From an uncultured Pelagibacteraceae bacterium (GTDB lineage Bacteria; Pseudomonadota; Alphaproteobacteria; Pelagibacterales; Pelagibacteraceae): a stretch of DNA of 64,000 nt. Each line of letters opens with the position of its first letter. Position 1 is the stretch's first letter. A model generated the notes under the pieces. It worked only from the letters and a program-made list of their open reading frames with translations, had not been told where the DNA came from and did no database searches. Where the stretch lies: positions 109,415 through 173,414 of the forward strand of contig CACGGJ010000001.1 in NCBI GenBank assembly GCA_902572515.1. Reading direction: 5' to 3'. Shown piece after piece: positions 32,614 to 60,513 of the stretch. The position numbers and the translations under genes were made by a program.

Positions 32614-32649
32614 AAATTTTTTAAATTAATTAATTTATTTTTAGATGAA

Positions 32650-32700
32650 AATAACTGACAGGTTATTTTGTGGCAGCGTTTAGTACTGTTAGAAGTACTA
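32650..32700 (-). repeat. Two tandem perfect hairpins in the rpoC-rpsL intergenic region
   Basis: AATAAC-TGACAG-GTTATT at 32650-32667 and TAGTACT-GTTAGA-AGTACTA at 32681-32700, read directly. Confidence 0.65.
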
Positions 32701-32779
32701 CATTCCAACCAAAAATATCGCCAAATTACTTATTAATAGCTCTTTGTCAAACTAAAACTGCAATTTTTAGGCGATTTTT

Positions 32780-46277: not shown

Positions 46278-46353
46278 GCCCTTGTAGCTCAGCTGGTAGA
46301 GCAATTGATTTGTAATCAATAGGTCCGCGGTTCGAATCCGTGCGGGGGCACCA
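46278..46353 (+). tRNA. tRNA-Thr (TGT); integration target, intact copy at the left end of the tandem island
   Basis: GCCCTTGTAGCTCAGCTGGTAGAGCAATTGATTTGTAATCAATAGGTCCGCGGTTCGAATCCGTGCGGGGGCACCA, complete cloverleaf. Confidence 0.96.
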
Positions 46354-46355
46354 CT
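46300..46355 (+). repeat. att copy 1: 56-bp direct repeat overlapping the 3' half of tRNA-Thr
   Basis: agcaattgatttgtaatcaataggtccgcggttcgaatccgtgcgggggcaccact, identical at 47116-47171. Confidence 0.93.
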
Positions 46356-46410
46356 TTACTTACTTTTTTATCAGAATAATTTATGCAAAAACTATTCTTA
46401 CGACAATAAG

Positions 46411-46430
46411 TGTTGTCAGATTGTTGTCAG
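46411..46430 (+). promoter_or_regulatory. Candidate recombinase arm-type site, element 1 left
   Basis: TGTTGTCAGATTGTTGTCAG, 11-bp period; 16 bp repeated at 47045-47060. Confidence 0.55.
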
Positions 46431-46453
46431 ATAAAACTAACAACTTGAACTTT

Positions 46454-47029
46454 TTAATTAATATAACTTTTTATTTGTTCTAGCCCAAAACATTTACCTG
46501 TAAATTCAATCATAATAATATCACCTTTATATTTTGTTCTTAAACTTGAAGAATAATTTCCTGTGTTTAAAGAAATCGATCCAATGAAACGTTCCATCTT
46601 TAAATCACTGGAGCCAGAGACTAATTGAAGCCATTTTTTATCTGGATCAAATTTTATTGTTTGGCTACTAACTATTAAGTCACCTATGTTTTGCGAAAAT
46701 ATTTGTGCAGGTCTTCGTAAACTTTTATTAGATCTCATTTCAAGAGTATAGAATTTTTTTCCTTTTCTTAAATTATATTCATCAATAAAAAGTTCTTCGG
46801 TATTGTGCTCCGGACCAAGACCCATTCCTGCATAATTTGTATATACTGTTCCCTCACAAGTAAATTTATATTCAGTTTTTGAAATGGAACTTTTGCTTTT
46901 AATTTCTTTATAGCCAGCACTTCCAAATTGAAACAAGCCTTTTGCTGTCCATAAAATTGCTATCACTAATCCAATGGCTGCTAAAATTTGAATAGGTCCT
47001 TTTGGCCTATATTCTTTTTTCTTTGCCAT
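46454..47029 (-). CDS. Single-TM protein of unknown function (element 1 cargo)
   Basis: ORF with MAKKKEYRPKGPIQILAAIGLVIAILWTAKGLFQF N-terminal TM; start trimmed from 47044 to 47029. Confidence 0.65.
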   Translation of the reverse strand: MAKKKEYRPKGPIQILAAIGLVIAILWTAKGLFQFGSAGYKEIKSKSSISKTEYKFTCEGTVYTNYAGMGLGPEHNTEELFIDEYNLRKGKKFYTLEMRSNKSLRRPAQIFSQNIGDLIVSSQTIKFDPDKKWLQLVSGSSDLKMERFIGSISLNTGNYSSSLRTKYKGDIIMIEFTGKCFGLEQIKSYIN

Positions 47030-47044
47030 AAAAAACTTTATCAT

Positions 47045-47064
47045 TGTTGTCAGATTGTTGCCAA
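47045..47064 (+). promoter_or_regulatory. Candidate recombinase arm-type site, element 1 right
   Basis: TGTTGTCAGATTGTTGCCAA; first 16 bp identical to 46411-46426. Confidence 0.5.
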
Positions 47065-47115
47065 GTTAAAAGTATTTAAAGATTATTGTTGCAAACAAAT
47101 GTTTATTTAAACTTT

Positions 47116-47171
47116 AGCAATTGATTTGTAATCAATAGGTCCGCGGTTCGAATCCGTGCGGGGGCACCACT
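47116..47171 (+). repeat. att copy 2: partial tRNA-Thr 3' half between elements 1 and 2
   Basis: 56 bp identical to 46300-46355. Confidence 0.93.
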
Positions 47172-47272
47172 AAAATCTCATTTATTTTCAACAAACATAA
47201 TAATTTCCTTAACTTTTTTAAAAACAAAAAATCGTTGAATAATACTATAGAATGGAAGGAAGAAGAACTGAC

Positions 47273-47293
47273 TGTAGTCTTTTTGTAGTCTTT
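47273..47293 (+). promoter_or_regulatory. Candidate recombinase arm-type site, element 2 left
   Basis: TGTAGTCTTTTTGTAGTCTTT, identical at 54846-54866. Confidence 0.6.
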
Positions 47294-47294
47294 G

Positions 47295-48203
47295 CTAAAA
47301 AGAACTTAGTTTGAAAGATACTTCATATTTCATAAATTTTATATTTGGTGCAACAGATAATGCATCTCTTAAATTCTTATCATCCTCTAATGCAATTATA
47401 AGTCCCTTAACATCTTTATCACCAGCCAAATTATTTTTAATATGCCCCATATATCTTTGGATCTGACCCATAACTACATCACTAGCTCTACCCTTCTTTA
47501 ATTCTATAACTAAAAATTCTTTTTTATCTTTACTAATTGCTAAAATATCTAAAGGACCAGATCCTGTTGAATATTGAGTACAAAGTTTGTTATTTTCTTT
47601 ATGAATATCATAATCTTTGTTCAGCTCTATATTGGTCCAATTTCTAATAATATAATCCTCGAGATGTTTTTCTAATAAAAAAGAAGATTTAGGAACTAAA
47701 TTATTTTCAATTGAATAATCTTTTTCATTATTAACATTAGTTTGATTTTGAATAGGAATTATTTCACCAGAATCTTCAACAGTTAATTTTAATTCTATAG
47801 TTTCTACCTCTTTTTTATTTCCATCTAAACAAGGAACACCATCCTTAAAACTAACAACTTTTCCAATACCTAGATAAGTGAATTGGGGATCTTTATTATC
47901 CCAACGCGCAAAAAAATGTGGCGTCATTTCACCGGATAATAACTTTTGAAAAGTTGGTTGTTGAGAATGAGATCTTGGTTTTCCGTACCAAACAATAACT
48001 CCTTTTGAATGATCATAATGATTATCAAAATCATGTTCTGTTGTTCCTGGCACACCAATATTCATGAAGATTATTAAATTATCTTCGACACGTACATAAC
48101 CTGTATCCCAATCACCGCCGGCAGGTCTGCCCTTGTCAGGAAAGCAAACCCAACCAATATCTTTTCTTGAATATTTTGAACCTTTTTTAAATTCTAATTT
48201 CAC
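47295..48203 (-). CDS. Putative DUF3427-like domain fused to NucS-like (DUF91) PD-(D/E)XK endonuclease
   Basis: C-terminus GPLDILAISKDKKEFLVIELKKGRASDVVMGQIQRYMGHIK gives D-x(n)-E-x-K nuclease core; N-terminus PHFFARWDNKDPQFTYLGIGKV resembles DUF3427-type modules. Confidence 0.65.
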   Translation of the reverse strand: MKLEFKKGSKYSRKDIGWVCFPDKGRPAGGDWDTGYVRVEDNLIIFMNIGVPGTTEHDFDNHYDHSKGVIVWYGKPRSHSQQPTFQKLLSGEMTPHFFARWDNKDPQFTYLGIGKVVSFKDGVPCLDGNKKEVETIELKLTVEDSGEIIPIQNQTNVNNEKDYSIENNLVPKSSFLLEKHLEDYIIRNWTNIELNKDYDIHKENNKLCTQYSTGSGPLDILAISKDKKEFLVIELKKGRASDVVMGQIQRYMGHIKNNLAGDKDVKGLIIALEDDKNLRDALSVAPNIKFMKYEVSFKLSSF

Positions 48204-49589
48204 TTATTTTTTCTCTTCAATTTGAATTATACAATCTGGTCCAACTTTAAGTGTAAAAGATTTTATCATATCTCTAAAGTCTTCTTCCATATCAAGCATA
48301 GCTCTTTCCTTATTAGCAATACTGTTTTCAAAAAACTTTTTTTCTTTACCCATAAGATCATTCATTTTAATAATTGATTGATACAAATTTCTTACAGGTA
48401 ATTGAAATGATGGGCCCATTATATGATCCCAAAGCCTTTTCATCATTTTTGGAGCATCAAAATCTTTCTTAGATTTATGTTCATTTATCAAGTTAGTTTT
48501 AATAAAACTTACAAGCATGTGAATTATTGGATAATTCATTGGAATTATAATAATTCTTTTACCATGCCTTTCAACATAGCCATCATGTTGTTTATTATAG
48601 TCTTTTGGCATAGCCGTAGTAATTAAAACACCATAATTGATATTTTTATCTTTCATATCGCTTAATAATTTACTTACCCATTCTTCTTTAAAAGTTTTGT
48701 GATCTTTGCTTTCAAAGTAAATCTGTGCAAGTTTTTCTTGATCTTTATTATTAATTGTAAGTATACAATCTGCACCTTTTGCTCCCTTTTTAACTTCTTC
48801 TACAGTATCTTGTGGAAATTTACTTCTAAGGTAATCCTCAATCAGTTCTTCTTGAACTTCACCTTGAACTTCCATCGATTTTTGTTTTAATTGTTTAGAC
48901 ATTTCATCAATTTTAACTTGAGTACGCCTTTTTTCTATTTCTCTTTCTTTGTCTTTTTTAGCCATCAGATCTTTAAGTTTTTGAACATCGTTTTCAGATT
49001 TTTCTTTAATTTTTTGTTCAATAACTTTTTCTTTTTGTTTAAGATCTGCAATTAACTTGGCTTCAATTTGTTTTTTATTCTTCTCAGCTTGTGCAACTTT
49101 AGTTTGAAGATCCATAAGCTCTTTTCTTTGCTTATTTTCTCTAATTAAAGCTTTCTCTTTTAACTGTTTTTCGATTTCTTTTTCCTTAAGCTTTAAACTG
49201 GCAATTAACTTAAACTCTGCCTCTTTAGAGCTTTTCTCCATTGCTTTTTCTTTAGCCTTAAGTTTATCTTCAATTGCTTTTTCTTTTTGCTTTAGCGTTG
49301 CTGTCATCTTTAATTCAGTATCTTTTCTACTCTTTTCGGCCTCTAAAATTTTAGACTGCAATGCCTGAACTTTCGCTTTACTTTCATTTTGTGCTTTTAA
49401 TGAAAGTTCTTTCTCTAAATTTTTTTCTTTTAGCTTGAAATCAAGATTAAATTTTTCTTTTAAAAGCTTTTCCTTAACCTTAATTTCTTCTTGGTACTCT
49501 TTTTCTTTGCTCTTTAAGTGATTTTGTAATGCCTGATCTGCAGAAAAAGTTTCATTACAGCTAGGACATGTTATTGTTAGTTGACTCAT
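48204..49589 (-). CDS. DUF2130 family protein (zinc-ribbon, long coiled coil, nuclease-like C-terminal domain)
   Basis: ITCPSCNETFSADQAL N-terminus, long K/E coiled coil, KGADCILTINNKDQEKLAQIYFESKDHKTFKEEWVSKL. Confidence 0.8.
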   Translation of the reverse strand: MSQLTITCPSCNETFSADQALQNHLKSKEKEYQEEIKVKEKLLKEKFNLDFKLKEKNLEKELSLKAQNESKAKVQALQSKILEAEKSRKDTELKMTATLKQKEKAIEDKLKAKEKAMEKSSKEAEFKLIASLKLKEKEIEKQLKEKALIRENKQRKELMDLQTKVAQAEKNKKQIEAKLIADLKQKEKVIEQKIKEKSENDVQKLKDLMAKKDKEREIEKRRTQVKIDEMSKQLKQKSMEVQGEVQEELIEDYLRSKFPQDTVEEVKKGAKGADCILTINNKDQEKLAQIYFESKDHKTFKEEWVSKLLSDMKDKNINYGVLITTAMPKDYNKQHDGYVERHGKRIIIIPMNYPIIHMLVSFIKTNLINEHKSKKDFDAPKMMKRLWDHIMGPSFQLPVRNLYQSIIKMNDLMGKEKKFFENSIANKERAMLDMEEDFRDMIKSFTLKVGPDCIIQIEEKK

Positions 49590-49616
49590 ATTTATTTTAC
49601 TCCTTTATTTAATTTA

Positions 49617-49817
49617 TTAGTTAATTGTTAGATCTTCTTCGGCACTCCACTCATTTGACTTATGCTGAATTTCTTTGATTTTACTTTTGGCTAAATATTC
49701 AATAACCTTACTAAATGTTAATTCTGCATTAATAATGTTACCTTTTCTTAGCCATTCTAAAGCTTCATAAGTATCCCTAGGTATGCTTACTGATTTATAT
49801 TTATTTGGATCTGCCAT
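49617..49817 (-). CDS. Ribbon-helix-helix-like small regulator
   Basis: 66 aa, KYKSVSIPRDTYEALEWLRKGNIINAELTFSKVIEYLAK. Confidence 0.55.
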   Translation of the reverse strand: MADPNKYKSVSIPRDTYEALEWLRKGNIINAELTFSKVIEYLAKSKIKEIQHKSNEWSAEEDLTIN

Positions 49818-49840
49818 TTTATCTCCCTTGTTTAATTTAA

Positions 49841-49864
49841 ATCCCCTGTTCCTTTACAGGGGAT
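49841..49864 (-). terminator. Perfect 9-bp GC-rich hairpin between the 78-aa and 66-aa genes
   Basis: ATCCCCTGT-TCCTTT-ACAGGGGAT. Confidence 0.5.
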
Positions 49865-49876
49865 GTTGTTGACGAT

Positions 49877-50113
49877 TTATTTACTTTCATCGCCTATTGT
49901 TAAAAATATTCCTCCAATTAAACCTGCTGCAATTGGAGTGAACTGTGACATTGGTCCCAAGAATGCGGTTAAATTTGTCCCCATTCTAGACGCAGCATAA
50001 TCTACAACTGCAAATCCTATGAAGAGTATTCCTAAATAACCAAATACTCCGCTAGGCAAATCAATCATCATTTCATCATTACTATTTTTTTTCTCTATTT
50101 TTGTTTTTTTCAT
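49877..50113 (-). CDS. Small membrane protein, two predicted TM segments
   Basis: GVFGYLGILFIGFAVVDYAA and FTPIAAGLIGGIFLTI hydrophobic segments. Confidence 0.6.
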   Translation of the reverse strand: MKKTKIEKKNSNDEMMIDLPSGVFGYLGILFIGFAVVDYAASRMGTNLTAFLGPMSQFTPIAAGLIGGIFLTIGDESK

Positions 50114-50140
50114 TTTCTCCTCTTTGTTAGTGTTTAGGAC

Positions 50141-50310
50141 TAAGAGGAATTCACAAATTGCAGAAAGGAGGTTAAGAACTATAATTTAACCAAAGATCAA
50201 TTTGCTCACTTCCTCTTAATCTTTTGTGTGTTCAATAAAATCAAACACACCCTATTTATAGTGATTTTAAAATGGTTTACCCGTAGGTTAACTTTTGACT
50301 TTGCCTACGG
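50141..50310. repeat. Nested and serial inverted repeats in the divergent control region of element 2
   Basis: TAAGAGGAA/TTCCTCTTA (50141-50149, 50210-50218), inner CAAATTG/CAATTTG and GGTTAA/TTAACC, then GTGTGTT/AACACAC (50226-50250) and CCGTAGG/CCTACGG (50281-50310). Confidence 0.65.
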
Positions 50311-50334
50311 ATGAATTTCTAATAATCTAAATTT

Positions 50335-50841
50335 ATGAGTAAAAGAAAGGGCTATCCAAGAAAACCATATTCATTTGAAAGAGTTTTAAAAGATTTAGCT
50401 GACGATATTGGTTACGATAATATTGAAACTGTTATAGAAAAAAAAAGAAAAGCTATTGAACATATCTCAAATCCTAATTTCAAAGATCGACAACTTCATA
50501 TACAAGATGGGTTGGAATTAGATATTCATTGTAAAAGGATTGGTAAAGGAACCCCTTTTCTTACAGCTTATGAAACCTTACTTAGAAAAGAAATTGCCAA
50601 TAGAAAAGATCACGATACTAGTGACGAAATAATCAATAATTTACTTAGGTTAGGTGAGTCTATAGGTGATGTAATGGAAGAAACTAGAAAAGCATTAGAC
50701 GATGATAAGGTTGATGAAGATGAAAAAGAACAAATTTCTATTGAGGTTATTGAATTAGAAAAAAAAATTGCTGAACTTAAGCTAAAATTAAATTTAGGTG
50801 AAAAAACAAACTATAAAATTCAAAATAAAAGAGAACCTTAA
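50335..50841 (+). CDS. Putative phage-type (CII-like) regulatory protein
   Basis: 168 aa; AIEHISNPNFKDRQLHIQDGLELDIHCKRIGKGTPFLTAYETLL resembles prophage regulatory proteins of alphaproteobacteria (recalled pattern, not searched). Confidence 0.45.
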   Translation: MSKRKGYPRKPYSFERVLKDLADDIGYDNIETVIEKKRKAIEHISNPNFKDRQLHIQDGLELDIHCKRIGKGTPFLTAYETLLRKEIANRKDHDTSDEIINNLLRLGESIGDVMEETRKALDDDKVDEDEKEQISIEVIELEKKIAELKLKLNLGEKTNYKIQNKREP

Positions 50842-50844
50842 TCA

Positions 50845-51693
50845 ATGCGTTATAGGTTTTTATTTAATTTTCTAAAAATTTCACTAGTTACAAAAGGAAT
50901 AAATAAAATAAATATTTTTTTAAATCTTGCAATTTTTTTAAGCATCTTCGCTATCTCAAGTACTCTCATATCTATATATTATGAATCAAAAATTACTGAT
51001 ATCGAAAAAAAAATCGCAAAAAATGATACGATATTAGACGTTCTGTCAGCGAGCACACTATCAATTCCAACTAAAGTTTTAGGTTTAGAGAATATATCAA
51101 ATGATATTAAAAAAAATAATGACATCATAAATTATTTTTTTTATTCAAAAGTAGGACAATTATTTGATGAATATGAATTGTATTATCGTCCAGTGATTCA
51201 TCTTAGTAATTATTTATCTAGTGGTTTTACGGCTATTAAAAATTTTGAGGATTTTATTAATATTAAAGATGATGCAATGCTTAAAAATGTTGATGAGAAA
51301 GTATTTGAAGATTTAAAGCAAAACTCAAGAAACCAAGAAGAATTTTTAAAAATTAGAAATAAAATTGATAATGATCATAAAGAATTTAAACTAGACAGAG
51401 GTATTAAGGTAATTAAACCTGAAAGTTTAAAAAGTTATCAAAATTACTATGACACTTTTATTATATATATAAATGATCAGCTTCATCATTATTCAATAAT
51501 ATCTGGAACGTTACAAAAAATTTATAATAATATAAAAAACGATAATCTTAAAAATTTTGAAGAAATATCGAAGAATTCAAAAGAGTCTAAAAAATTCATT
51601 ATATTTGCTTTTTTCTTTCAATTAATAATTTTTATTATTGTACAGGTAATGGAAATAATAACTACCAGAAGGGAAATACAAAAAATCAAATGA
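50845..51693 (+). CDS. Membrane protein A (N- and C-terminal TM), unknown function
   Basis: N-term FLSIFAISSTLISIYYESK and C-term FIIFAFFFQLIIFIIVQVMEI; paralogue of 53331..54098. Confidence 0.75.
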   Translation: MRYRFLFNFLKISLVTKGINKINIFLNLAIFLSIFAISSTLISIYYESKITDIEKKIAKNDTILDVLSASTLSIPTKVLGLENISNDIKKNNDIINYFFYSKVGQLFDEYELYYRPVIHLSNYLSSGFTAIKNFEDFINIKDDAMLKNVDEKVFEDLKQNSRNQEEFLKIRNKIDNDHKEFKLDRGIKVIKPESLKSYQNYYDTFIIYINDQLHHYSIISGTLQKIYNNIKNDNLKNFEEISKNSKESKKFIIFAFFFQLIIFIIVQVMEIITTRREIQKIK

Positions 51694-52547
51694 CTTTAAA
51701 TGTAAGAATTCTAGGTTTAATTATTCTAGTAGGTTTATTTACTGTATCATCTTTTATTTTCGATCAGATGGTTATTTATTCTGAAGATAAAATCAGAGAA
51801 AAAAACTTCTTATATAAAAGATCATTTAATAATTATTTATCTAGCAAAAATGTAATGTTTACTACGAGAGATTTAATGACAAGGATTCAAGTGAAAAAAA
51901 ATTTTTTTGAGGATAGACAATCCTTTTTGCAGGATGCTGTATCAGTATTATTTAATGATAATCTGATTAAATCAACATTTGATGAAAATGTTGGAAAAAA
52001 TTATTTCAAAAATCTTAAAACAATTTTTACATCAAGATATCAAACACTGGGATATGATATTTTAAAAGAATGCGATCTAGCATACAGTTTTTTTAAAGGA
52101 ATACAGGTAAGAAAATTTGATCTTAATATCCATGAAGATGAAAAGACAATAAAAGCAATTAAAGGATTAAATAAAATAAATTTAGAAAACTCATTAAAAA
52201 CTCATGATCATTTTACCAAAAAACTGGATATAGAAAGAAAAAAAATTCTATCTGTAGACTATGGCATTTCTAATATTGACGAATTCTATCTCATTAGAAA
52301 AATGTACACTGATTTATTAAATTATTATTTTTTACACTATGGATACTTAGAAAAAATAAATGATGCACATAGGGTAACTTTCAATTTTTATTTTAAAGAA
52401 TCTTCACGTTTTTTAGATGAAAAAAGTAAGCACGAAAGACAAAAAAATTATTTTATTTTATTTGGTGTTTTATCTCAAATTTTAAGTCTTTTTTTCCTAA
52501 TATTTCTTTTTAAAACTTTAATGTTTTTAGCAAATAAAAAATCATAA
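51690..52547 (+). CDS. Membrane protein B (N- and C-terminal TM), unknown function
   Basis: ATGA overlap with A; SSFIFDQMVIYSEDKIREKNF and LFGVLSQILSLFFLIFLFKTLMF; paralogue of 52558..53334. Confidence 0.75.
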   Translation: MTLNVRILGLIILVGLFTVSSFIFDQMVIYSEDKIREKNFLYKRSFNNYLSSKNVMFTTRDLMTRIQVKKNFFEDRQSFLQDAVSVLFNDNLIKSTFDENVGKNYFKNLKTIFTSRYQTLGYDILKECDLAYSFFKGIQVRKFDLNIHEDEKTIKAIKGLNKINLENSLKTHDHFTKKLDIERKKILSVDYGISNIDEFYLIRKMYTDLLNYYFLHYGYLEKINDAHRVTFNFYFKESSRFLDEKSKHERQKNYFILFGVLSQILSLFFLIFLFKTLMFLANKKS

Positions 52548-52577
52548 AAAATTTGTCTTAAATTTTTGATTTTTTAT
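52534..52577. terminator. Bidirectional terminator-like long inverted repeat between convergent B and B'
   Basis: ATAAAAAATCA...AAAATTT-GTCTT-AAATTTT-TGATTTTTTAT. Confidence 0.6.
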
Positions 52578-53334
52578 AAATCAACAATCCTCTAAATAAA
52601 ATCAACAAACAGAGTAAGCTTAATAACTGGAATACTACACCGAATAGAAGCATAAGTTGTTTTCTATTTTCTATTTTTGAAGACTCATTTATCAATTTAT
52701 CGAGATCTTTTGATGCATTCGTTCCAAGTTCAGCCATAGTATTTAACAGATCTTGTAAATAATAATTATTGTGTTCTACATAAGCTTTTGTAGTTTCTAG
52801 AGCAGAACTTTCAGTATCATTTCCATCTTTATCTGTTAAAACAATTACAAAATCAGGGTCTTTTTCTAACTCACCAGTTAACCAATGATTTTCGTCAATT
52901 AAATATTGAAAATATTCAGCAAAGGAAAACTCTTTTTGATTTAATTCTTCACTACTTGTATCTGTTGCCTTTATCTTTTTATCCTTAAGACCTTCTATTA
53001 CCATTTGATCATTAATAATATCTTCCATTAACCTGGTTTGATCAAAAATATTTGAAAAATAATAAAATTTTTTTTTATCTTCAGAAAATGTAGATGCACT
53101 TACAATAAAAACTGTATTTTGAAATGCTAGCAGAAACTCATTTACCCTATTGTTCATTGAAAGATAAGCAGATCTACTTTCTGAGTTTGTTATTATATCA
53201 AAGTTAACTTTCCTTAATTTTTCCTCATACTGAATAACAAATTGGTCAAAAACAAAAGTTAAAATTTGAAAAACACCTGCAAGAAAAACCAATGTCCAGT
53301 TAAAATTTGATAATTTTCCTTTTGCTCTTCTCAT
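52558..53334 (-). CDS. Membrane protein B' (paralogue of B)
   Basis: LTFVFDQFVIQYEEKLRKVNF and LLFGVVFQLLSLLCLLILFRGLLIY match B. Confidence 0.75.
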   Translation of the reverse strand: MRRAKGKLSNFNWTLVFLAGVFQILTFVFDQFVIQYEEKLRKVNFDIITNSESRSAYLSMNNRVNEFLLAFQNTVFIVSASTFSEDKKKFYYFSNIFDQTRLMEDIINDQMVIEGLKDKKIKATDTSSEELNQKEFSFAEYFQYLIDENHWLTGELEKDPDFVIVLTDKDGNDTESSALETTKAYVEHNNYYLQDLLNTMAELGTNASKDLDKLINESSKIENRKQLMLLFGVVFQLLSLLCLLILFRGLLIYKKSKI

Positions 53335-54098
53335 GAAAGTTCTTTTAATTCAAATATTTGTACTAAAGAAAAAATAACCAATTGAAAAATAAACGCATAC
53401 AAGATTGCATCTGTTGATTTGTCTGTTGTATTTAGAATAATTTTTTTTAATTCTTTTTTTTCACTATCAACAATACGATTATAATCTTGAAAGAATAAAT
53501 TTATTTGTAAAGTATTATATTCAGATTGGTTCAAATGAGATAAAATATCATCAAATGGAACATTTTTAAGAACTTCCTCAATTTCTAAAATTTCACTACT
53601 TTCTAAATATTCATTCTCATTATCAGGGAATTTATCATATATTTCATAAACATAGTTTAACGCGTCTTCATTTGTCTTTTTGATGTTTTTAAAATTATAT
53701 TTTTTCTTAAGAATTTCATTTTTGATGAGCTCAATATCATCAATGGCATACCTAATTGTAAACGGATACCAAGTTAATAAATAAAAATAAAATCTTTTCT
53801 TACTTATGTTAACCTTTTCGTTGTTTTCAATTGTATCATAAGTAAATTTTCCAATTTTAAATTCTAAATTTCTTGATGGTGCGTCTGTTAACCATTCTTG
53901 TATTTTAAACTCTTCAAGTTCTAATTTAATTAATTTAACCTTATAATTGTTTAATTTATTTTCAAAATATATTGAAATACCTGAAGATATAAGTGCTGCT
54001 AATACTAAAAAAATTCCCAACTCCGAAAAAAATTTCAGTCTTTGTTTATTTTTTTTACTAGTTGCTAAAAGGTTTTTAATTAAAAAAGCTCTAATCAT
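53331..54098 (-). CDS. Membrane protein A' (paralogue of A)
   Basis: LGIFLVLAALISSGISIYFENKL and ILYAFIFQLVIFSLVQIFEL match A; 4-nt overlap with B'. Confidence 0.75.
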   Translation of the reverse strand: MIRAFLIKNLLATSKKNKQRLKFFSELGIFLVLAALISSGISIYFENKLNNYKVKLIKLELEEFKIQEWLTDAPSRNLEFKIGKFTYDTIENNEKVNISKKRFYFYLLTWYPFTIRYAIDDIELIKNEILKKKYNFKNIKKTNEDALNYVYEIYDKFPDNENEYLESSEILEIEEVLKNVPFDDILSHLNQSEYNTLQINLFFQDYNRIVDSEKKELKKIILNTTDKSTDAILYAFIFQLVIFSLVQIFELKELS

Positions 54099-54803
54099 TT
54101 ATATTTTTATTTTCTCATGTTCGCTTTTTTTATTTTTCTGTTTCCTTTTAAGATCTCTATGAAGGTATAATGAAGAAAAAACTAGAGCAAGTATGACCCA
54201 CATTGAGTCTGGCCATTCAAGAAAATTATAAAAACCATGAAATAGATAAGGTAAAATTAATGACAATATCAAAAAATTTTTATTTCCAGTAAAAGCATAC
54301 ATTCCAAAATAGTAACCCATTACAGCACCATTAAGTCCATGCAAAGGTATTGCCGAGTATGACCTGCCTAAAGCCACTAAATATGATAATTCAGCAAAAT
54401 CATAACCTTCATCTTTTGCTATTTGCTCTGCCCATTCATATACGTAAGTATAATTTTCATAAGTTGCAAAACCCAAAGAAACAACAACCCCATAAACTAA
54501 ACCATCCATAGGTTCATTAAATTCGTTTCTTTTTAAAACTATTAGATAAAGAATTGAAAATTTTAACAATTCTTCGGCCCACGCAGGACCCAAGAAACTA
54601 CTGACTAAATTTTCAGAGTATTTTGATCCGTCATAAAAAAAATCATGACTTAAACCATTTAAAATTCCCGCAGGTAAACAAATTAAAAAACCAAGAAAAA
54701 AAATTAATATTACTGTGCCTTTAGGTTCTTTAAATTTATCGGTAAGTACAAAATATAATAAAATTATTATTGGAGGAACTAATGTAATTAAAAGAGTTAT
54801 CAT
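54099..54803 (-). CDS. PrsW-family intramembrane metalloprotease-like protein
   Basis: AWAEELLKFSILYLIVLKRNEFNEPMDGLVYGVVVSLGFATYENYTYV, HGLNGAVMGYYFG, LFHGFYNFLEW: EExxK and His-containing TM motifs. Confidence 0.8.
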   Translation of the reverse strand: MITLLITLVPPIIILLYFVLTDKFKEPKGTVILIFFLGFLICLPAGILNGLSHDFFYDGSKYSENLVSSFLGPAWAEELLKFSILYLIVLKRNEFNEPMDGLVYGVVVSLGFATYENYTYVYEWAEQIAKDEGYDFAELSYLVALGRSYSAIPLHGLNGAVMGYYFGMYAFTGNKNFLILSLILPYLFHGFYNFLEWPDSMWVILALVFSSLYLHRDLKRKQKNKKSEHEKIKI

Positions 54804-54845
54804 TTAAAAATGCTATCAAATGATTAAAATAAAGTCTAACACAAG

Positions 54846-54866
54846 TGTAGTCTTTTTGTAGTCTTT
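54846..54866 (+). promoter_or_regulatory. Candidate recombinase arm-type site, element 2 right
   Basis: TGTAGTCTTTTTGTAGTCTTT, identical to 47273-47293. Confidence 0.6.
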
Positions 54867-54943
54867 ATAAATGATGCTAGTAGACGGGAGTCTAAAAGTT
54901 AAGTAGTATCAACCTTAATGATAGGAAAATTATTTACGCTTAC

Positions 54944-54991
54944 TGATTTGTAATCAATAGGTCCGCGGTTCGAATCCGTGCGGGGGCACCA
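54944..54991 (+). repeat. att copy 3: tRNA-Thr 3' fragment at right end of element 2
   Basis: tgatttgtaatcaataggtccgcggttcgaatccgtgcgggggcacca, 48 bp identical to tRNA-Thr 3' end. Confidence 0.93.
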
Positions 54992-55028: not shown

Positions 55029-56090
55029 CTATAATAATTTAAAATATTTTTTAATTTGGCTTAAAGTAAATTCAAAAATTTTATTTGGATTTTTATAAAA
55101 CTCTTTATACCACAAATTAGTTAAATTCAGCGCTTCAAAAACATTTATTCTTGGTCTCCAGTTAAAACTTCTTTTAATTTTAATGTTAGATAACTTGAGT
55201 ATCTTTGTTTCTTTAAATTTGATTTTTTTTTTGTAGCCAAAATTTAAAATTTTAAGGTTTTTCTTTAATATTTTTACTAAAGTAATTACTTTAATATTAG
55301 AGCTTTTATTAGGGCCTACATTAAATACTATTGAATTTGATTTTATTTTTTTTTGACTTTTGCAAATTATTATCAGCAAAGCATTTATTAAATCAAAAAT
55401 ATGCTGCCAAGGTCTTATTGCATTTGGATTACGTAAAATAAATTTTTTATTTTTATTAATTGATAAAAATAAGTCAGGAATTAATCTTGTAAAATCAAAA
55501 TCACCTCCACCAATTATATTTCCAGCTCTAATAATCGTTACATTTTTTGTAAATTTGAAAAAAGACTCTTTGTAGCTATTTGCTAAGATATCTTGTGAAG
55601 ACTTACTTGAACTGTATGGATCAAGTCCACCTAATTTAGATTCCTCGCTCAAAATATTTCCTGTAATGTTTCTATAAACTTTATCTGAGGTAAAAATTAA
55701 TACCTGACGAACAGATGGGGTTTTTTTTATCAACTCAAACAATTCGATAGTTCCTAAGACATTTGTTAAGTAAGTACCTTTTATATCTTTATAAGCCTCT
55801 CTGACTATAGGTTGTGATGCTAAATGAATAATAATTTCTGGTTTAAATTTAATAATTTTTTTTTTAAAATTATTTATTTTTAAAATATCACCAGAAATAG
55901 TTTTAATTAATTTTTTAAAATTTGGATGGTTAGATAGATATCCCTTGTAATTTTTTTTTAATGAATAACCTAAAATATTTGCACCAAATAAAGACAAAAC
56001 AATTGATAAATTAGATCCAACAAACCCAGTGTGGCCTGTAATTAATATTTTTTTTTTATTAAAGAATTTTTTAAATGTTTTTATTCGCAT
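55029..56090 (-). CDS. rfbG: CDP-glucose 4,6-dehydratase
   Basis: ILITGHTGFVGSNLSIVLSLFGANILGYSL, LGGLDPYSSSKSSQDI, IRAGNIIGGGDF. Confidence 0.9.
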   Translation of the reverse strand: MRIKTFKKFFNKKKILITGHTGFVGSNLSIVLSLFGANILGYSLKKNYKGYLSNHPNFKKLIKTISGDILKINNFKKKIIKFKPEIIIHLASQPIVREAYKDIKGTYLTNVLGTIELFELIKKTPSVRQVLIFTSDKVYRNITGNILSEESKLGGLDPYSSSKSSQDILANSYKESFFKFTKNVTIIRAGNIIGGGDFDFTRLIPDLFLSINKNKKFILRNPNAIRPWQHIFDLINALLIIICKSQKKIKSNSIVFNVGPNKSSNIKVITLVKILKKNLKILNFGYKKKIKFKETKILKLSNIKIKRSFNWRPRINVFEALNLTNLWYKEFYKNPNKIFEFTLSQIKKYFKLL

Positions 56091-56941
56091 TTTATTTTTT
56101 CTAATTTATCCCAAAATAAAATAAATTTTTTTTCATATTTGTAATTTAATTTAGATCTATGAATTTGATCATTTATATATTTATAGAGCACACTTATTCT
56201 AGGATCTATTTTTTTATTAATTTTTTTTAAAAATGGATTTATAGAATTATAACAATTTTTTTTATTATGCTGTATATAAAATCTATTTATCTTTGAAAAC
56301 TTAACTTCAAGTATCATATTGTTATTATTTTTGTCAGATAAATCAAAATAACAGAAATTTTTTTTAGTAGTAATTTTATTTAATTTAAAAAATTTTAAAT
56401 CATAAAAAATTCTTATAAAATGAATAGAATAAAATCTAATTAATCCACCGCCTGATGAATGAACATATTTCCATAAGTTGTTTTCACTATTATGTTTAAT
56501 ATCCCAAATTATTTTAAATTTTTGATTTCTTGTTAGTCTCCTTTTAATATAATTGTGCCACACAATATATTTAAACAAAAAGCCCACGCTAAATTTTATT
56601 TTTTTATTTTGTAAAAATTCAATTAATTTAATTGAATTCGAAGGATTGATACTTATAGGTTTTTCCAAAAAAACGTGTTTTGGTCTATAAATTTTAACAT
56701 ATCTTCTTAAATTCAAATCTTGGTTTTGTGGATTTTGGGCAATGATTAAGTAATCAATTTTTTTTAAAGTTAATTTTTTTTCATTATACCAAATTACTTT
56801 TTTTAAAAACTTTTTTAGTTCAATTCTTTTTTTAATTTTTTTTTGATATTTTATATTTAAAAATATATTTTTAGATTTTTTGTATATTGAAGGAAGATAA
56901 CCATATAATCCAAAACCTGATCCAAGAATTAAAGTATTCAT
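56081..56941 (-). CDS. Gfo/Idh/MocA-like oxidoreductase
   Basis: LGSGFGLYGYLPSI, DYLIIAQNPQNQ, HVFLEKPISINPSNSIKL. Confidence 0.7.
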   Translation of the reverse strand: MNTLILGSGFGLYGYLPSIYKKSKNIFLNIKYQKKIKKRIELKKFLKKVIWYNEKKLTLKKIDYLIIAQNPQNQDLNLRRYVKIYRPKHVFLEKPISINPSNSIKLIEFLQNKKIKFSVGFLFKYIVWHNYIKRRLTRNQKFKIIWDIKHNSENNLWKYVHSSGGGLIRFYSIHFIRIFYDLKFFKLNKITTKKNFCYFDLSDKNNNNMILEVKFSKINRFYIQHNKKNCYNSINPFLKKINKKIDPRISVLYKYINDQIHRSKLNYKYEKKFILFWDKLEKIKCE

Positions 56942-58161
56942 TTAAAATCACTTTTTGATATTATATCAATTACTTTGCCTTTATATTTTAATTGACTTGA
57001 TAAATATTTTTTTATTTCAGAACTAATATGCCAAGCTAAATTAATTATAACACCCTTTTTTTTATCCTTTTCTGAAAAAAATTTTTCTTTTACAATTTTA
57101 ATATTTGTTCCAGGAGCATACTTATTATTTTTCAAAGATGTATTTTTTTCATAAATAAACGAAATATAATTGGAGTCCAATTTTAGTAGATTTAATATTA
57201 TTGAGGCTCTACCAGGAAATGCTTTAGCTGCTATTGGTCCTTTTTCTCTTACAATTTGATAAAGTTGTTTTTTTTTCTTTAAGCACCAATAATCAACTCT
57301 TTTCTGCAAATATCTAACCTGATTAATTATTAATTTTTCAGATCTCAATTTTTTTTTAACTTCACTTTTGTTTTTAAAAACTTTACCTTTATTGCTTAAA
57401 TACACCCTTATATTGCCGTTGTATCTTTTAACAAACTTGTAATCTATTATTTTAATTTTCATTTTTTCTGAAATTTTAACAAATGACTTCAAACTATATG
57501 TTCTTGGATGTTCGTGATAGAAGGTATCAAATTGATTTTTTTTAATTACCTCACCAAAATAGTGATTTTCAATTATTATTAAAGTATCGTCATCACAAAT
57601 ATTTTTCAGAGACAATAATAAATTTTTTAAATCATCGATATGTGCAAAAACGTTTGTGAAAGTAATTATATTAATTTTTCCAATTATTTTTTTAATTTTA
57701 TTTGAAGAAGATAAATTAAAGTAACTATTAAAAATTTTATGTCCTTTTTTTTTAGCCTCTTTATAAGCTCCTGTAGGCTCAATTCCAAATGTTTTACATC
57801 CTTGCTTTTTAAATAATGATAGTAAACTTCCATCGTTACAACCAATATCTAAGACTGTTTTATCTTTGATATTAGTAAAATATTTCTTTGAACTCAAAAC
57901 CAAATCTTTCATGCCATCTAAAACATCTTTTGTATTAGAAGATCTATAATGATAAGTTTTTGGGAATAAGATTTTTTTCTCTATATTATATTTCTGAAAG
58001 GCTGTTAGACAATCTTTGCAATAAGAAACCTTTAGTTTATAAAATTTATTATTATTTGGTTTTTTTGAAAGATCATCGCATAGCGGTTGTTTTCCAAGAT
58101 TTAGAAAATCAAATAACTTTTTTTCACAGATTTGGCACTTTTTAATTATTTTATATTTCAT
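56938..58161 (-). CDS. Sugar C-methyltransferase-like SAM-dependent methyltransferase
   Basis: CQICEKKLFDFLNLGKQPLCDDL zinc-binding N-term; VLDIGCNDGSLLSLFKKQG; ENHYFGEVIKKNQFDTFYHEH. Confidence 0.85.
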   Translation of the reverse strand: MKYKIIKKCQICEKKLFDFLNLGKQPLCDDLSKKPNNNKFYKLKVSYCKDCLTAFQKYNIEKKILFPKTYHYRSSNTKDVLDGMKDLVLSSKKYFTNIKDKTVLDIGCNDGSLLSLFKKQGCKTFGIEPTGAYKEAKKKGHKIFNSYFNLSSSNKIKKIIGKINIITFTNVFAHIDDLKNLLLSLKNICDDDTLIIIENHYFGEVIKKNQFDTFYHEHPRTYSLKSFVKISEKMKIKIIDYKFVKRYNGNIRVYLSNKGKVFKNKSEVKKKLRSEKLIINQVRYLQKRVDYWCLKKKKQLYQIVREKGPIAAKAFPGRASIILNLLKLDSNYISFIYEKNTSLKNNKYAPGTNIKIVKEKFFSEKDKKKGVIINLAWHISSEIKKYLSSQLKYKGKVIDIISKSDFK

Positions 58162-58969
58162 TGAAATTTTCTTTCAGTAAAATATATGGCCAGGTTTGGA
58201 CTTTAAGATTTTTTTCAAAATAATATGAAAAGTATCTCTCTGCTAAAAAATCATAAAGTCGTTCTTTTCCATACCCAGTAAGTTCTATCTTTGAAAAAGT
58301 CTTTTCGCACTTGAATATCCAATCAAAAGTTTTTTCATATAATTTTACTATATATTTTTTTTTTGAAATAAACATTTGCAAAGGGTAGAATGAATAATTG
58401 TTATTTATATAATTTTTAAAATTAAGACAATCCTCTTTTTCCAATAGATCTGCTGATTGATTCAGTAAATTGTACCCATGAAATAAATCAAAATGTAAAC
58501 TTATACTTATTTTTTTTCTATTAAATAATATTTTTGGGTTTTTAATATAATTTCTAAATCCTTTCTTTATTAATTTAGATAATTTTAAGTTTTCTAAATT
58601 AATTTTATCTGGCAACAAGACTTCAAAATCACCATTTGGAATAGAGCGCTGTATATGCTCTTTTAAATTCAAACTAGTCAAATTATCATTTGATCTATTT
58701 ATCCAAAATCTTCTATAATGATTAATTCCAATCCAATCATCATCTTCCAAATTAATAAATTCATTATTCCACAGCCAATAATGAGAAGATAATGTTCCAA
58801 AATTTTTATTTTTGTTTGAAATATTTTTGCCTGTTGAATCTTTAAACCAATTATCAGGAAATTTTGACAGATCTTTAGAAATTGAACCAGATACAATTAT
58901 TTTCAAATCTAAATTATGTAGAAAAGAATAATTTTTTCCAGTTATACAATAATGATTAATTAATGGCAT
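58151..58969 (-). CDS. DUF4422-type glycosyltransferase-like protein
   Basis: SHYWLWNNEFINLEDDDWIGINHYRRFW, YPLQMFISKKKY, AERYFSYYF. Confidence 0.75.
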   Translation of the reverse strand: MPLINHYCITGKNYSFLHNLDLKIIVSGSISKDLSKFPDNWFKDSTGKNISNKNKNFGTLSSHYWLWNNEFINLEDDDWIGINHYRRFWINRSNDNLTSLNLKEHIQRSIPNGDFEVLLPDKINLENLKLSKLIKKGFRNYIKNPKILFNRKKISISLHFDLFHGYNLLNQSADLLEKEDCLNFKNYINNNYSFYPLQMFISKKKYIVKLYEKTFDWIFKCEKTFSKIELTGYGKERLYDFLAERYFSYYFEKNLKVQTWPYILLKENFNEI

Positions 58970-59031
58970 GGTAAATAAAACAAAAATATTTTTCTTTATT
59001 TAAAGTATTTATACTTTAAAAATCAATATTA

Positions 59032-59739
59032 ATGAAATTAGTTATCTTAGCTGGAGGTTATGGAACGAGACTCGCAGAGGAAACCAAAGTTAAACCAAAA
59101 CCTTTAGTTAAAATTGGTAACAAGCCAATAGTTTGGCATTTATTAAAGATTTACTCATATTATGGAATCAATGATTTTATAATTTGCTTAGGTTACAAAG
59201 GCGACTTGCTTATTAAAGAATTAAATCAAATCTCCAATAAAGAAGACTGGAAAATTAAATATGTTAAAACTGGTCTAAAAACTATGACTGGAGGTAGAAT
59301 AAAAAAAATCCAAAAATTTATTAAAGATGATGAAAATTTTTGTCTTTCATATGGTGATGGTTTGTCTGATGTAAATATTAAAAAACTGATCAAATTTCAC
59401 TTAAAAAATAAAAAAATAGCAACACTTACTGCAGTTAAATATAAAAACCCAAAAGGAATATTGCTTTTTGGCAATCAAAATAAAATTAAAAAAATTAAAG
59501 AAAAACCATTAGAATATATTAATGGTGGTTTTTTTGTATTATCAAAAAAAATATTTAAATTTTTAAAAAATTCAAAAACAATATTCGAGAAAGATTGTTT
59601 GCCAAAACTAGCTCATACTAATGAACTGATAGCTTTTAAACATAAAGGTTTCTGGGGATGTATGGATACTTTAAGAGAAAAAAAAGAATTAAACAAAATT
59701 TATAAAAGTAATAACAAAGCCTGGAAAGTTTGGATTTAA
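59032..59739 (+). CDS. rfbF: Glucose-1-phosphate cytidylyltransferase
   Basis: MKLVILAGGYGTRLAEETKVKPKPLVKIGNKPIVWHLLKIYSYYG. Confidence 0.92.
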   Translation: MKLVILAGGYGTRLAEETKVKPKPLVKIGNKPIVWHLLKIYSYYGINDFIICLGYKGDLLIKELNQISNKEDWKIKYVKTGLKTMTGGRIKKIQKFIKDDENFCLSYGDGLSDVNIKKLIKFHLKNKKIATLTAVKYKNPKGILLFGNQNKIKKIKEKPLEYINGGFFVLSKKIFKFLKNSKTIFEKDCLPKLAHTNELIAFKHKGFWGCMDTLREKKELNKIYKSNNKAWKVWI

Positions 59740-59742
59740 GTT

Positions 59743-60513
59743 TTACTTAGTCTCATTTCTGATTTGTTCAATTTTAATCTTTTTTTGTAGACTTCTGTTT
59801 TTATCGTAAAGAAGATTAAACTTTATTTTATTATTAGTTTTAACCATAATTGATTTAGCATTTCTTACTTCTAAATTATCAGCAACAGCACTAATGGGTC
59901 TCTTAGTTGGGTTTAAGTTAGTTATAACTATTTTAGTTTTATCATTAACTATTTTGCCCTTCCATCTTCTTGGTCTAAATGCACTTATAGGTGATATTGA
60001 TAATTTTTTTGAATGAAGACTTAATATGGGTCCATGAACAGAAAGATTATAGGCTGTACTTCCTGCAGGTGTTGATACTAAAACACCATCAGAAACTAAT
60101 TTTTTAATTATTTTTCTTGAGCCTTGTTTAATCGATAGTGAAGCAGCCTGTCTGCTTTGTCTAAGTACAGATACTTCATTAATAGCAATTGATCTCTTTG
60201 TTTGATTATTTTTGTTTTTAACAATCATTTCTAGCGGGGAAATTGAAACTAAATTTGCTTTTAACAAGTTTTTTAAAATATCTTTTGAAGAAAATTTATT
60301 CATAAGAAAACCATAATTTCCAGAATTAATCCCATAAAAATGTTTATTAGAATTTTTATTCTTTTTTAGTGTTTGAAGCATAAAACCATCACCACCTATA
60401 ACAATTATGAGATTTTCTTTTTTAAAATTATTTATTTTTAATTTTTTTAATAATAAATTTTTAATATTCGATGATTTCTTATTTTTGTCTGAAATTATTT
60501 GAAGCTTACTCAT
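59743..60513 (-). CDS. nadK: NAD kinase
   Basis: LIIVIGGDGFMLQTLKK-type GGDG motif, VLVSTPAGSTAYNLSVHGPIL. Confidence 0.92.
   Translation of the reverse strand: MSKLQIISDKNKKSSNIKNLLLKKLKINNFKKENLIIVIGGDGFMLQTLKKNKNSNKHFYGINSGNYGFLMNKFSSKDILKNLLKANLVSISPLEMIVKNKNNQTKRSIAINEVSVLRQSRQAASLSIKQGSRKIIKKLVSDGVLVSTPAGSTAYNLSVHGPILSLHSKKLSISPISAFRPRRWKGKIVNDKTKIVITNLNPTKRPISAVADNLEVRNAKSIMVKTNNKIKFNLLYDKNRSLQKKIKIEQIRNETK

Follow-up and report, generated by a model that had tools for sequence, protein, structure and literature searches.

Results

The tRNA-Thr locus and its inserts

The window analysed here is a stretch of 64,000 nucleotides from the genome of an uncultured SAR11 bacterium of the Pelagibacter type, whose assembly comprises 41 contigs and 1.17 Mb and is 89% complete. 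The gene order in the window is secE, EF-Tu, tRNA-Gly, tRNA-Tyr, rlmB, tRNA-Thr(TGT), inserted DNA, sugar genes, NAD kinase and tRNA-Leu. Directly behind the tRNA-Thr gene two inserts, named e1 and e2, stand in tandem and are delimited by three copies of the tRNA 3' part (att). The features of the locus are the following.

46278..46353, forward strand: intact tRNA-Thr(TGT), called by ARAGORN and Rfam
46306-46353, forward strand: first att core, the 3' part of tRNA-Thr and left end of e1
46354..47121: e1, small class, 768 bp between att cores, one gene
46411..46432, forward strand: left arm-type pair of e1, TGTTGTCAGAT twice
46454..47044, reverse strand: single cargo gene of e1, 196 aa, without Pfam match
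47045..47066, forward strand: right arm-type pair of e1, TGTTGTCAGAT TGTTGCCAAGT
47116..47171, forward strand: att copy 2, shared by e1 (right end) and e2 (left end), 56 bp, same sequence as 46300-46355
47170..54943: e2, large class, 7,774 bp between att cores, ten genes
47273..47294, forward strand: left arm-type pair of e2, TGTAGTCTTTT TGTAGTCTTTG
47295..48203, reverse strand: 302 aa, NucS_C/PDDEXK-like nuclease domain, PADLOC defence candidate PDC-S02 (1e-58)
48204..49589, reverse strand: 461 aa, DUF2130 (6e-31), weak Mrr_cat
49617..50113, reverse strand: two small ORFs of 66 and 78 aa, no assigned function
50335..50841, forward strand: 168 aa, CII-like regulator (PHROG 101, 3e-7; Phage_CP76 below cutoff)
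50845..54098: four probable membrane proteins in two pairs (forward, forward, reverse, reverse), no assigned function
54099..54803, reverse strand: 234 aa, PrsW-family intramembrane protease (1.5e-33)
54846..54867, forward strand: right arm-type pair of e2, TGTAGTCTTTT TGTAGTCTTTA
54944..54991, forward strand: att copy 3, at the right end of e2, exact over 48 bp
59743..60513, reverse strand: NAD kinase, which delimits the empty site of relatives on the right

The perfect repeats of the tRNA-Thr(TGT) 3' half over 56 and 48 bp that an earlier note on this DNA had reported are exact, and ARAGORN and Rfam agree with its naming of the tRNA. Both lengths are correct as given, the difference between them reflecting two classes of elements. 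The hexamer AGCAAT precedes the shared core in the small class, to which e1 belongs, and in the attP of integrase-bearing relatives, and is absent before the core in the large class, to which e2 belongs. A 25-base att probe is found at three places only in the window, with none expected from 100 dinucleotide-preserving shuffles; the whole genome assembly contains the same three copies and none elsewhere. Copies 2 and 3 lack the 5' half of the tRNA. A direct repeat of the tRNA 3' end is thus present at both borders with the tRNA itself kept intact, as is typical of tDNA genomic islands; the integrase that such islands encode is present in neither e1 nor e2. The identity of the repeats had also been read as a sign of recent insertion. 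This reading does not hold, because the 48-bp core, being a functional tRNA end, is nearly invariant across the genus. Sugar genes (55029-59739) fill the 4.8 kb that separate the last att from NAD kinase, and no att copy belongs to this block.

Neither e1 nor e2 was found to contain an integrase or a recognised gene for replication or packaging. The likely true start of the e1 gene, the ATG at 47029, is separated from the next core by 92 bp, a distance shared with the other small cassettes. When e1 was scanned for consensus promoters, the matches did not clearly exceed those in shuffled sequence; a promoter within the right end is a guess.

Occupied and empty sites in related genomes

The core was found in 92 of 297 genomes of the family that were searched, and the comparison covered 21 arrays and 18 single-copy loci fetched from relatives. 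Twenty-one further genomes of the same genus have two to four att copies at tRNA-Thr, spaced at 0.58–7.7 kb, and in two of these (G035 and G043) the genome with the tandem copies is a single contig. The site is empty in eight checked genomes (L027, L029, L032, L035, L036, L037, L039 and L096), the tRNA end lying 4–8 bp from the NAD kinase stop. In the arrays L006, L014, L020 and L025 the last att lies 4 bp from NAD kinase, and these arrays therefore occupy exactly the empty site. The single-copy genomes are not uniformly empty: several have 1–7 kb lacking a recognisable right att.

The comparison of the tRNA-Thr junction proposed in the earlier note thus gave empty sites, alternative contents and one species having e2 but not e1. 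The same content everywhere with no alternative occupancy, which that note had named as the outcome speaking against it, is not what the relatives show, and its view of two stacked site-specific insertions at tRNA-Thr is borne out by the empty sites and by the alternative occupancy. An assembly duplication, or a simple duplication of the tRNA, might be suspected in a genome that is split into many contigs. The same architecture, however, recurs with different contents in the 21 other genomes, including the single-contig ones, and the additional copies are without the tRNA 5' half; the relatives already refute this explanation, and we assign it a negligible probability. The att-flanked inserts are two architectural classes of a genus-wide system. 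In G598, a genome of a related species, e2 stands directly at the tRNA without e1, and e1 is therefore most likely a later arrival that came in between the tRNA and e2.

Arm-type repeats and cassette architecture

Apart from a few damaged ones, all elements have a tandem pair of 11-bp repeats close to either end, and its distance to the core is fixed. Measured from the core, the arms lie at about +57–68 and −77 to −81 in the small class and at about +93–104 and −97/−98 in the large class. The arm word varies from element to element and agrees inside one element. The match between an element's own arms averaged 15.8/20 in the small class (22 elements) versus 12.3 between elements, a difference reached in 0 of 20,000 permutations; for the six elements of the large class the respective values were 19.8/20 and 15.3 (29 of 20,000 permutations). 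Random internal segments, used as a control, gave an arm match of 11.0 with a maximum of 12.7. To judge from this arrangement, the arm pairs have the look expected of arm-type binding sites and are candidates for sites bound by cognate phage integrases. One arm is lost in the cassettes L007 and L018, and part of the cassette population, such as these two, may be dead. No array seen holds two equal arm words, in a sample too small for this to be meaningful.

The 19-base arm word of e1 has matches in 12 viral contigs, and in two independent viral lineages (L120 and L113) it adjoins a tyrosine integrase gene. These two matches support the arm function, but neither is a SAR11 helper. In the five integrase sequences compared, residues 12–14 vary with the arm word (GAW or GVW with TGTTG words, HVE or CVE with TTGCG words). 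The predicted cognate arm words are TGTTGTC for the integrase of L112, TGTTGCAG for that of L090 and TTGCGGAC for that of L065.

All 40 ORFs of the small class are oriented towards the tRNA. The first start codon lies 88–95 bp from the right core in 15–16 of the 20 listed small cassettes, and two more, e1 among them, have an internal ATG at 92 bp. In integrase-bearing relatives the integrase gene starts about 103 bp from the right core, close to the position of the cassette start codon. The small cassettes have conserved sequence at both ends and unrelated cargo inside; the match of e1 to other cassettes is confined to its last ~90 bp, plus its first 77 bp in the case of L005. Their cargo includes genes for trypsin-like protease, CsgG-like, polysaccharide lyase, pilin-like, HNH and peroxiredoxin proteins, and the large cassettes carry ResIII/Mrr helicase-nuclease and MmeI-type restriction genes.

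Transfer between species and exchange of cargo

The e2 elements of the host and of G598 are 97.6% identical over the first 3.7 kb from the att, whereas the adjacent backbone, as far as the tRNA, shows an identity of 81.6%. Their right ends are 89.9% identical and the middle part (50845..54098 in the window) holds other genes. Judging by these identities, e2 has passed from one species to another, and the transferred segment is sharply delimited at the att.

The arm word of e2 is present in five of 399 genomes, and in four of the five (the host, G407, G598 and G619) an element at tRNA-Thr is flanked by the word in paired form. What stands behind it in G407 and G619 is a ResIII/Mrr helicase-nuclease, a cargo unlike that of e2, and L021_e1 carries a ResIII/Mrr helicase-nuclease gene under another arm word. 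A 261-aa cargo protein is 97–99% identical in three cassettes (L008, L016 and L018), the arm word of L008 differing from those of L016 and L018. The finding of similar cargo under different arm words means that cargo and address recombine.

The spread of the inserts could in principle be due to homologous recombination over the tRNA 3' half and its flanks, with no site-specific integrase now active. SAR11 bacteria recombine freely, the core repeats are identical, and the difference in the inner genes of e2 and its G598 counterpart, whose ends match on both sides, indicates that homologous exchange within elements does occur. The jump in identity between the two genomes, however, falls at the att itself and not inside rlmB or in the other flank, and homologous recombination gives the arm pairs no reason to match within each element. 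We therefore regard this mode of spread as improbable.

Integrases and integrase-bearing relatives

The host genome assembly contains one tyrosine recombinase (PF00589), a protein of 325 aa that is encoded far from the inserts and is probably Xer-like. An integrase inside the array was found in one of the 22 array genomes (G173). In 20 of them a single PF00589 match, mostly of 325 aa and probably Xer, lies outside the array, and one (G177) has no PF00589 match. Most array genomes are incomplete, so that integrases were possibly missed in them, and two are complete; G035 and G043 are single contigs, and the absence of an integrase there is therefore not an assembly gap.

In nearly all array genomes the search yielded no tyrosine recombinase other than the Xer-like protein, which could suggest that this is the enzyme integrating the elements. 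The sites used, however, are tRNA ends with paired 11-bp arms, as they are found beside phage integrases, and not dif sites; satellites having an integrase of their own use the same core and arms, and Xer proteins, to our knowledge, have no arm-binding domain. Integration by this enzyme is very improbable indeed.

Elements of the same design that do bear an integrase were found. L112 (in genome G648) is a 6.9-kb satellite with an integrase of 326 aa and a primase, integrated at tRNA-Thr. The sequence of its left arm, AGTGTTGTCAGATTGTTG, recurs without change in the left arm of e1, whose first 18–20 bases equal it, and in that of L005_e2. Core and arm word are equal in e1 and L112, the cargo is unrelated and the sequence between core and arm differs. 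The viral contig L065 carries an unintegrated attP with the tRNA-Thr core and arms; its integrase gene starts beside the right arm, and the contig also encodes a primase/helicase-like ATPase and a TerS-like protein. The arms of L090, TGTTGCAG, are like those of the cassettes L016_e2 and L023_e1. L006_e1, which has an integrase with an Arm-DNA-bind_3 domain and a primase, is spaced as in the large class and, like e2, has a TGTAGTC word. A relative of the same design, whose integrase is 76% identical, sits in tRNA-Asn. In L091 cargo is combined with a 78-aa N-terminal integrase remnant that adjoins the right arm; by its gene content this element is an apparent intermediate between an integrase-bearing element and a cassette.

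No viral relative of the L006 integrase was found, and no close viral relative of the L065 integrase besides itself. The exact arm word of e2 and the right end of the small class are both absent from the viral contigs searched, and thus no virion-borne cassette was found among them. Where the tRNA core occurs in viral contigs, it mostly belongs to a complete tRNA gene rather than to an attP. Neither the viral contigs nor the 399 genomes yielded a helper integrase with the exact e2 arm word, the four other genomes with this word having it in cargo elements or at unresolved ends.

The integrase fragment in L091, the missing arm in L007 and L018 and the common loss of genes among integrated elements would also be compatible with the inserts being decayed and fixed remnants of formerly autonomous satellites, which lost the integrase after integration and have since been passed on only by vertical descent and homologous recombination. 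Independent decay, however, would not have produced the shared ends of small cassettes with unrelated cargo, their fixed gene direction and their nearly fixed start distance. The arms remain matched within elements, e2 crossed species with its boundary at the att, and the nearly identical 261-aa protein recurs in three cassettes. Taken together, these points make decay an unlikely explanation.

Discussion

In our opinion e1 and e2 are, with high probability, non-autonomous cassettes that carry no integrase, imitate a phage-satellite attP and owe their movement to an enzyme acting in trans. A cassette would consist of the tRNA-Thr 3' core, left and right arm-type pairs for a phage-type tyrosine integrase and the cargo, and it would resemble a phage-satellite attP in which the integrase gene has been swapped for cargo. 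The integrase would be supplied by a visiting satellite or phage, would bind the cassette arms and recombine the cassette core with the tRNA-Thr 3' end. The tRNA would be restored in this step, and the same enzyme could later excise the cassette. Cassettes of unlike arm specificity might thereby become stacked. The integrase families involved presumably differ, being of the L065/L112 type for the class of e1 and of the Arm-DNA-bind_3 type for the class of e2. Cassettes of 0.5–8 kb may pass from cell to cell by co-packaging with a helper satellite or by uptake of free DNA.

Several known systems share some of these properties. CIMEs are deletion products that are mobilised in cis by a neighbouring ICE. 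Like them, e1 and e2 are att-flanked DNA without an integrase of its own, stacked at a tRNA or a similar site. In contrast to CIMEs, no adjacent integrase-bearing element is present in the window or in 21 of the 22 array genomes, and the ends belong to a conserved family that has matched arms of its own. The match of short ends to an autonomous partner with an unrelated inside, as seen in e1 compared with L112, is reminiscent of MITEs, but the system described here is one of site-specific tyrosine integrases at a single tRNA, with no transposase and with real cargo genes. Single-gene cassettes stacked at one site and served by an integrase in trans are also known from integrons, and CALIN lack the integrase (PMC11389934). 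Judged by their borders, each a tRNA-Thr 3' half accompanied by an 11-bp arm pair in direct repeat and not a folded attC site, e1 and e2 belong to neither, and the partner integrases are of the phage type.

There is also a likeness to phage satellites (PICI, tycheposons, VEIME; the marine ones are reviewed in PMC11389934), which also target tRNA 3' ends and have an attP with arm-type sites; pelagiphages with a tRNA-derived attP are known as well (PMC3861242). The integrase and the genes for replication or hijacking of packaging that characterise satellites are found at this tRNA in L112, L006_e1 and L065, each with an integrase and a primase or primase-like gene and L065 with a TerS-like gene in addition, whereas e1, e2 and nearly all related inserts are without an integrase or a recognised replication or packaging gene. 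Tycheposons, as summarised in PMC10872708, measure 4–200 kb and carry a tyrosine recombinase, while e1 measures only 0.77 kb. According to the sections of the same paper that deal with it, fGI-2 of Ca. Methylopumilus is an additive island at tRNA-Lys with recurring tRNA 3'-end repeats, its islands starting from 330 bp and holding 1–63 genes of mostly unknown function. It belongs to another lineage and another tRNA, and those sections describe no arm repeats, cognate integrase or cassette architecture (PMC10872708). A description of arm-matched integrase-less cassettes was not found in the open-access papers searched, subscription papers, including the original one on tycheposons, being outside the scope of this search.

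SAR11 bacteria, which rank among the ocean's most abundant cells, have very small genomes, yet their gene content is variable. As far as we know, they are mostly without recognisable prophages, integrases and transposons. It is conceivable, and we put it forward tentatively, that parasitism and gene sharing in SAR11 take place on three levels, namely phages, satellites that exploit phage particles and a large pool of minimal cassettes that exploit the integrases of the satellites, and that about ten arm-word addresses shuffle and stack cargo such as secreted, restriction and defence proteins with no integrase kept by the host. If this is true, the cassettes would be moved by enzymes foreign to the host and addressed by element-specific arm repeats, and the arm-word code would tie each cassette to the integrase expected to move it, a relation that is directly testable. 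A stock of 0.5–8 kb cassettes at a single tRNA would then explain the turnover of defence and secreted-protein genes in these streamlined cells.

Results

The cargo of e2, the larger of the two integrase-less inserts stacked at tRNA-Thr(TGT), and the other features discussed here are as follows.

Window 32634-32724: match to the rpsL sRNA (RF01823), 93.9 bits
Window 47295-48203: nuclease in e2, matching the PADLOC candidate defence family PDC-S02 (1e-58)
Window 50845-54098: two pairs of unknown proteins in e2, probably membrane proteins
Window 55029-59739: sugar/polysaccharide gene block between the last att copy and the NAD kinase gene
L088, 4277-10790: satellite inserted at tRNA-Asn in genome AG-893-K09, encoding an integrase and a primase-like protein of 689 aa

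The nuclease of e2 is adjoined by a DUF2130 protein, and in the near-identical element of the related genome G598 the stretch 50845-54098 is replaced by a different gene set. No att was found at the right end of the sugar/polysaccharide block, and content between att and NAD kinase, likewise unexplained, is present in other relatives too.

The arms (the paired repeats near the insert ends) of the L088 satellite are TTGCGACCAGAG/TTGCGACCATAG, and the 19-base arm word of e1, the smaller insert, adjoins tyrosine integrase genes in two viral contigs (L120:5464 and L113:4303), the former having a GC content of 47%, which differs from that of SAR11.

In two loci of relatives, L020 and L012, the base following GTTCGA is A in the tRNA copy and G in the distal att copy, a change consistent with replacement of the tRNA end by the core of the element and displacement of the host's original end to the distal position.

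Ten small cassettes, the e1-class inserts of relatives (L005, L008, L009, L010, L011, L013, L014, L016, L018 and L022), each contain a gene opening with a near-identical signal peptide, MKKLLGIVVLGLLLS..., after which the mature parts are unrelated among the ten. It looks as if the export signal were a component of the small-cassette frame.
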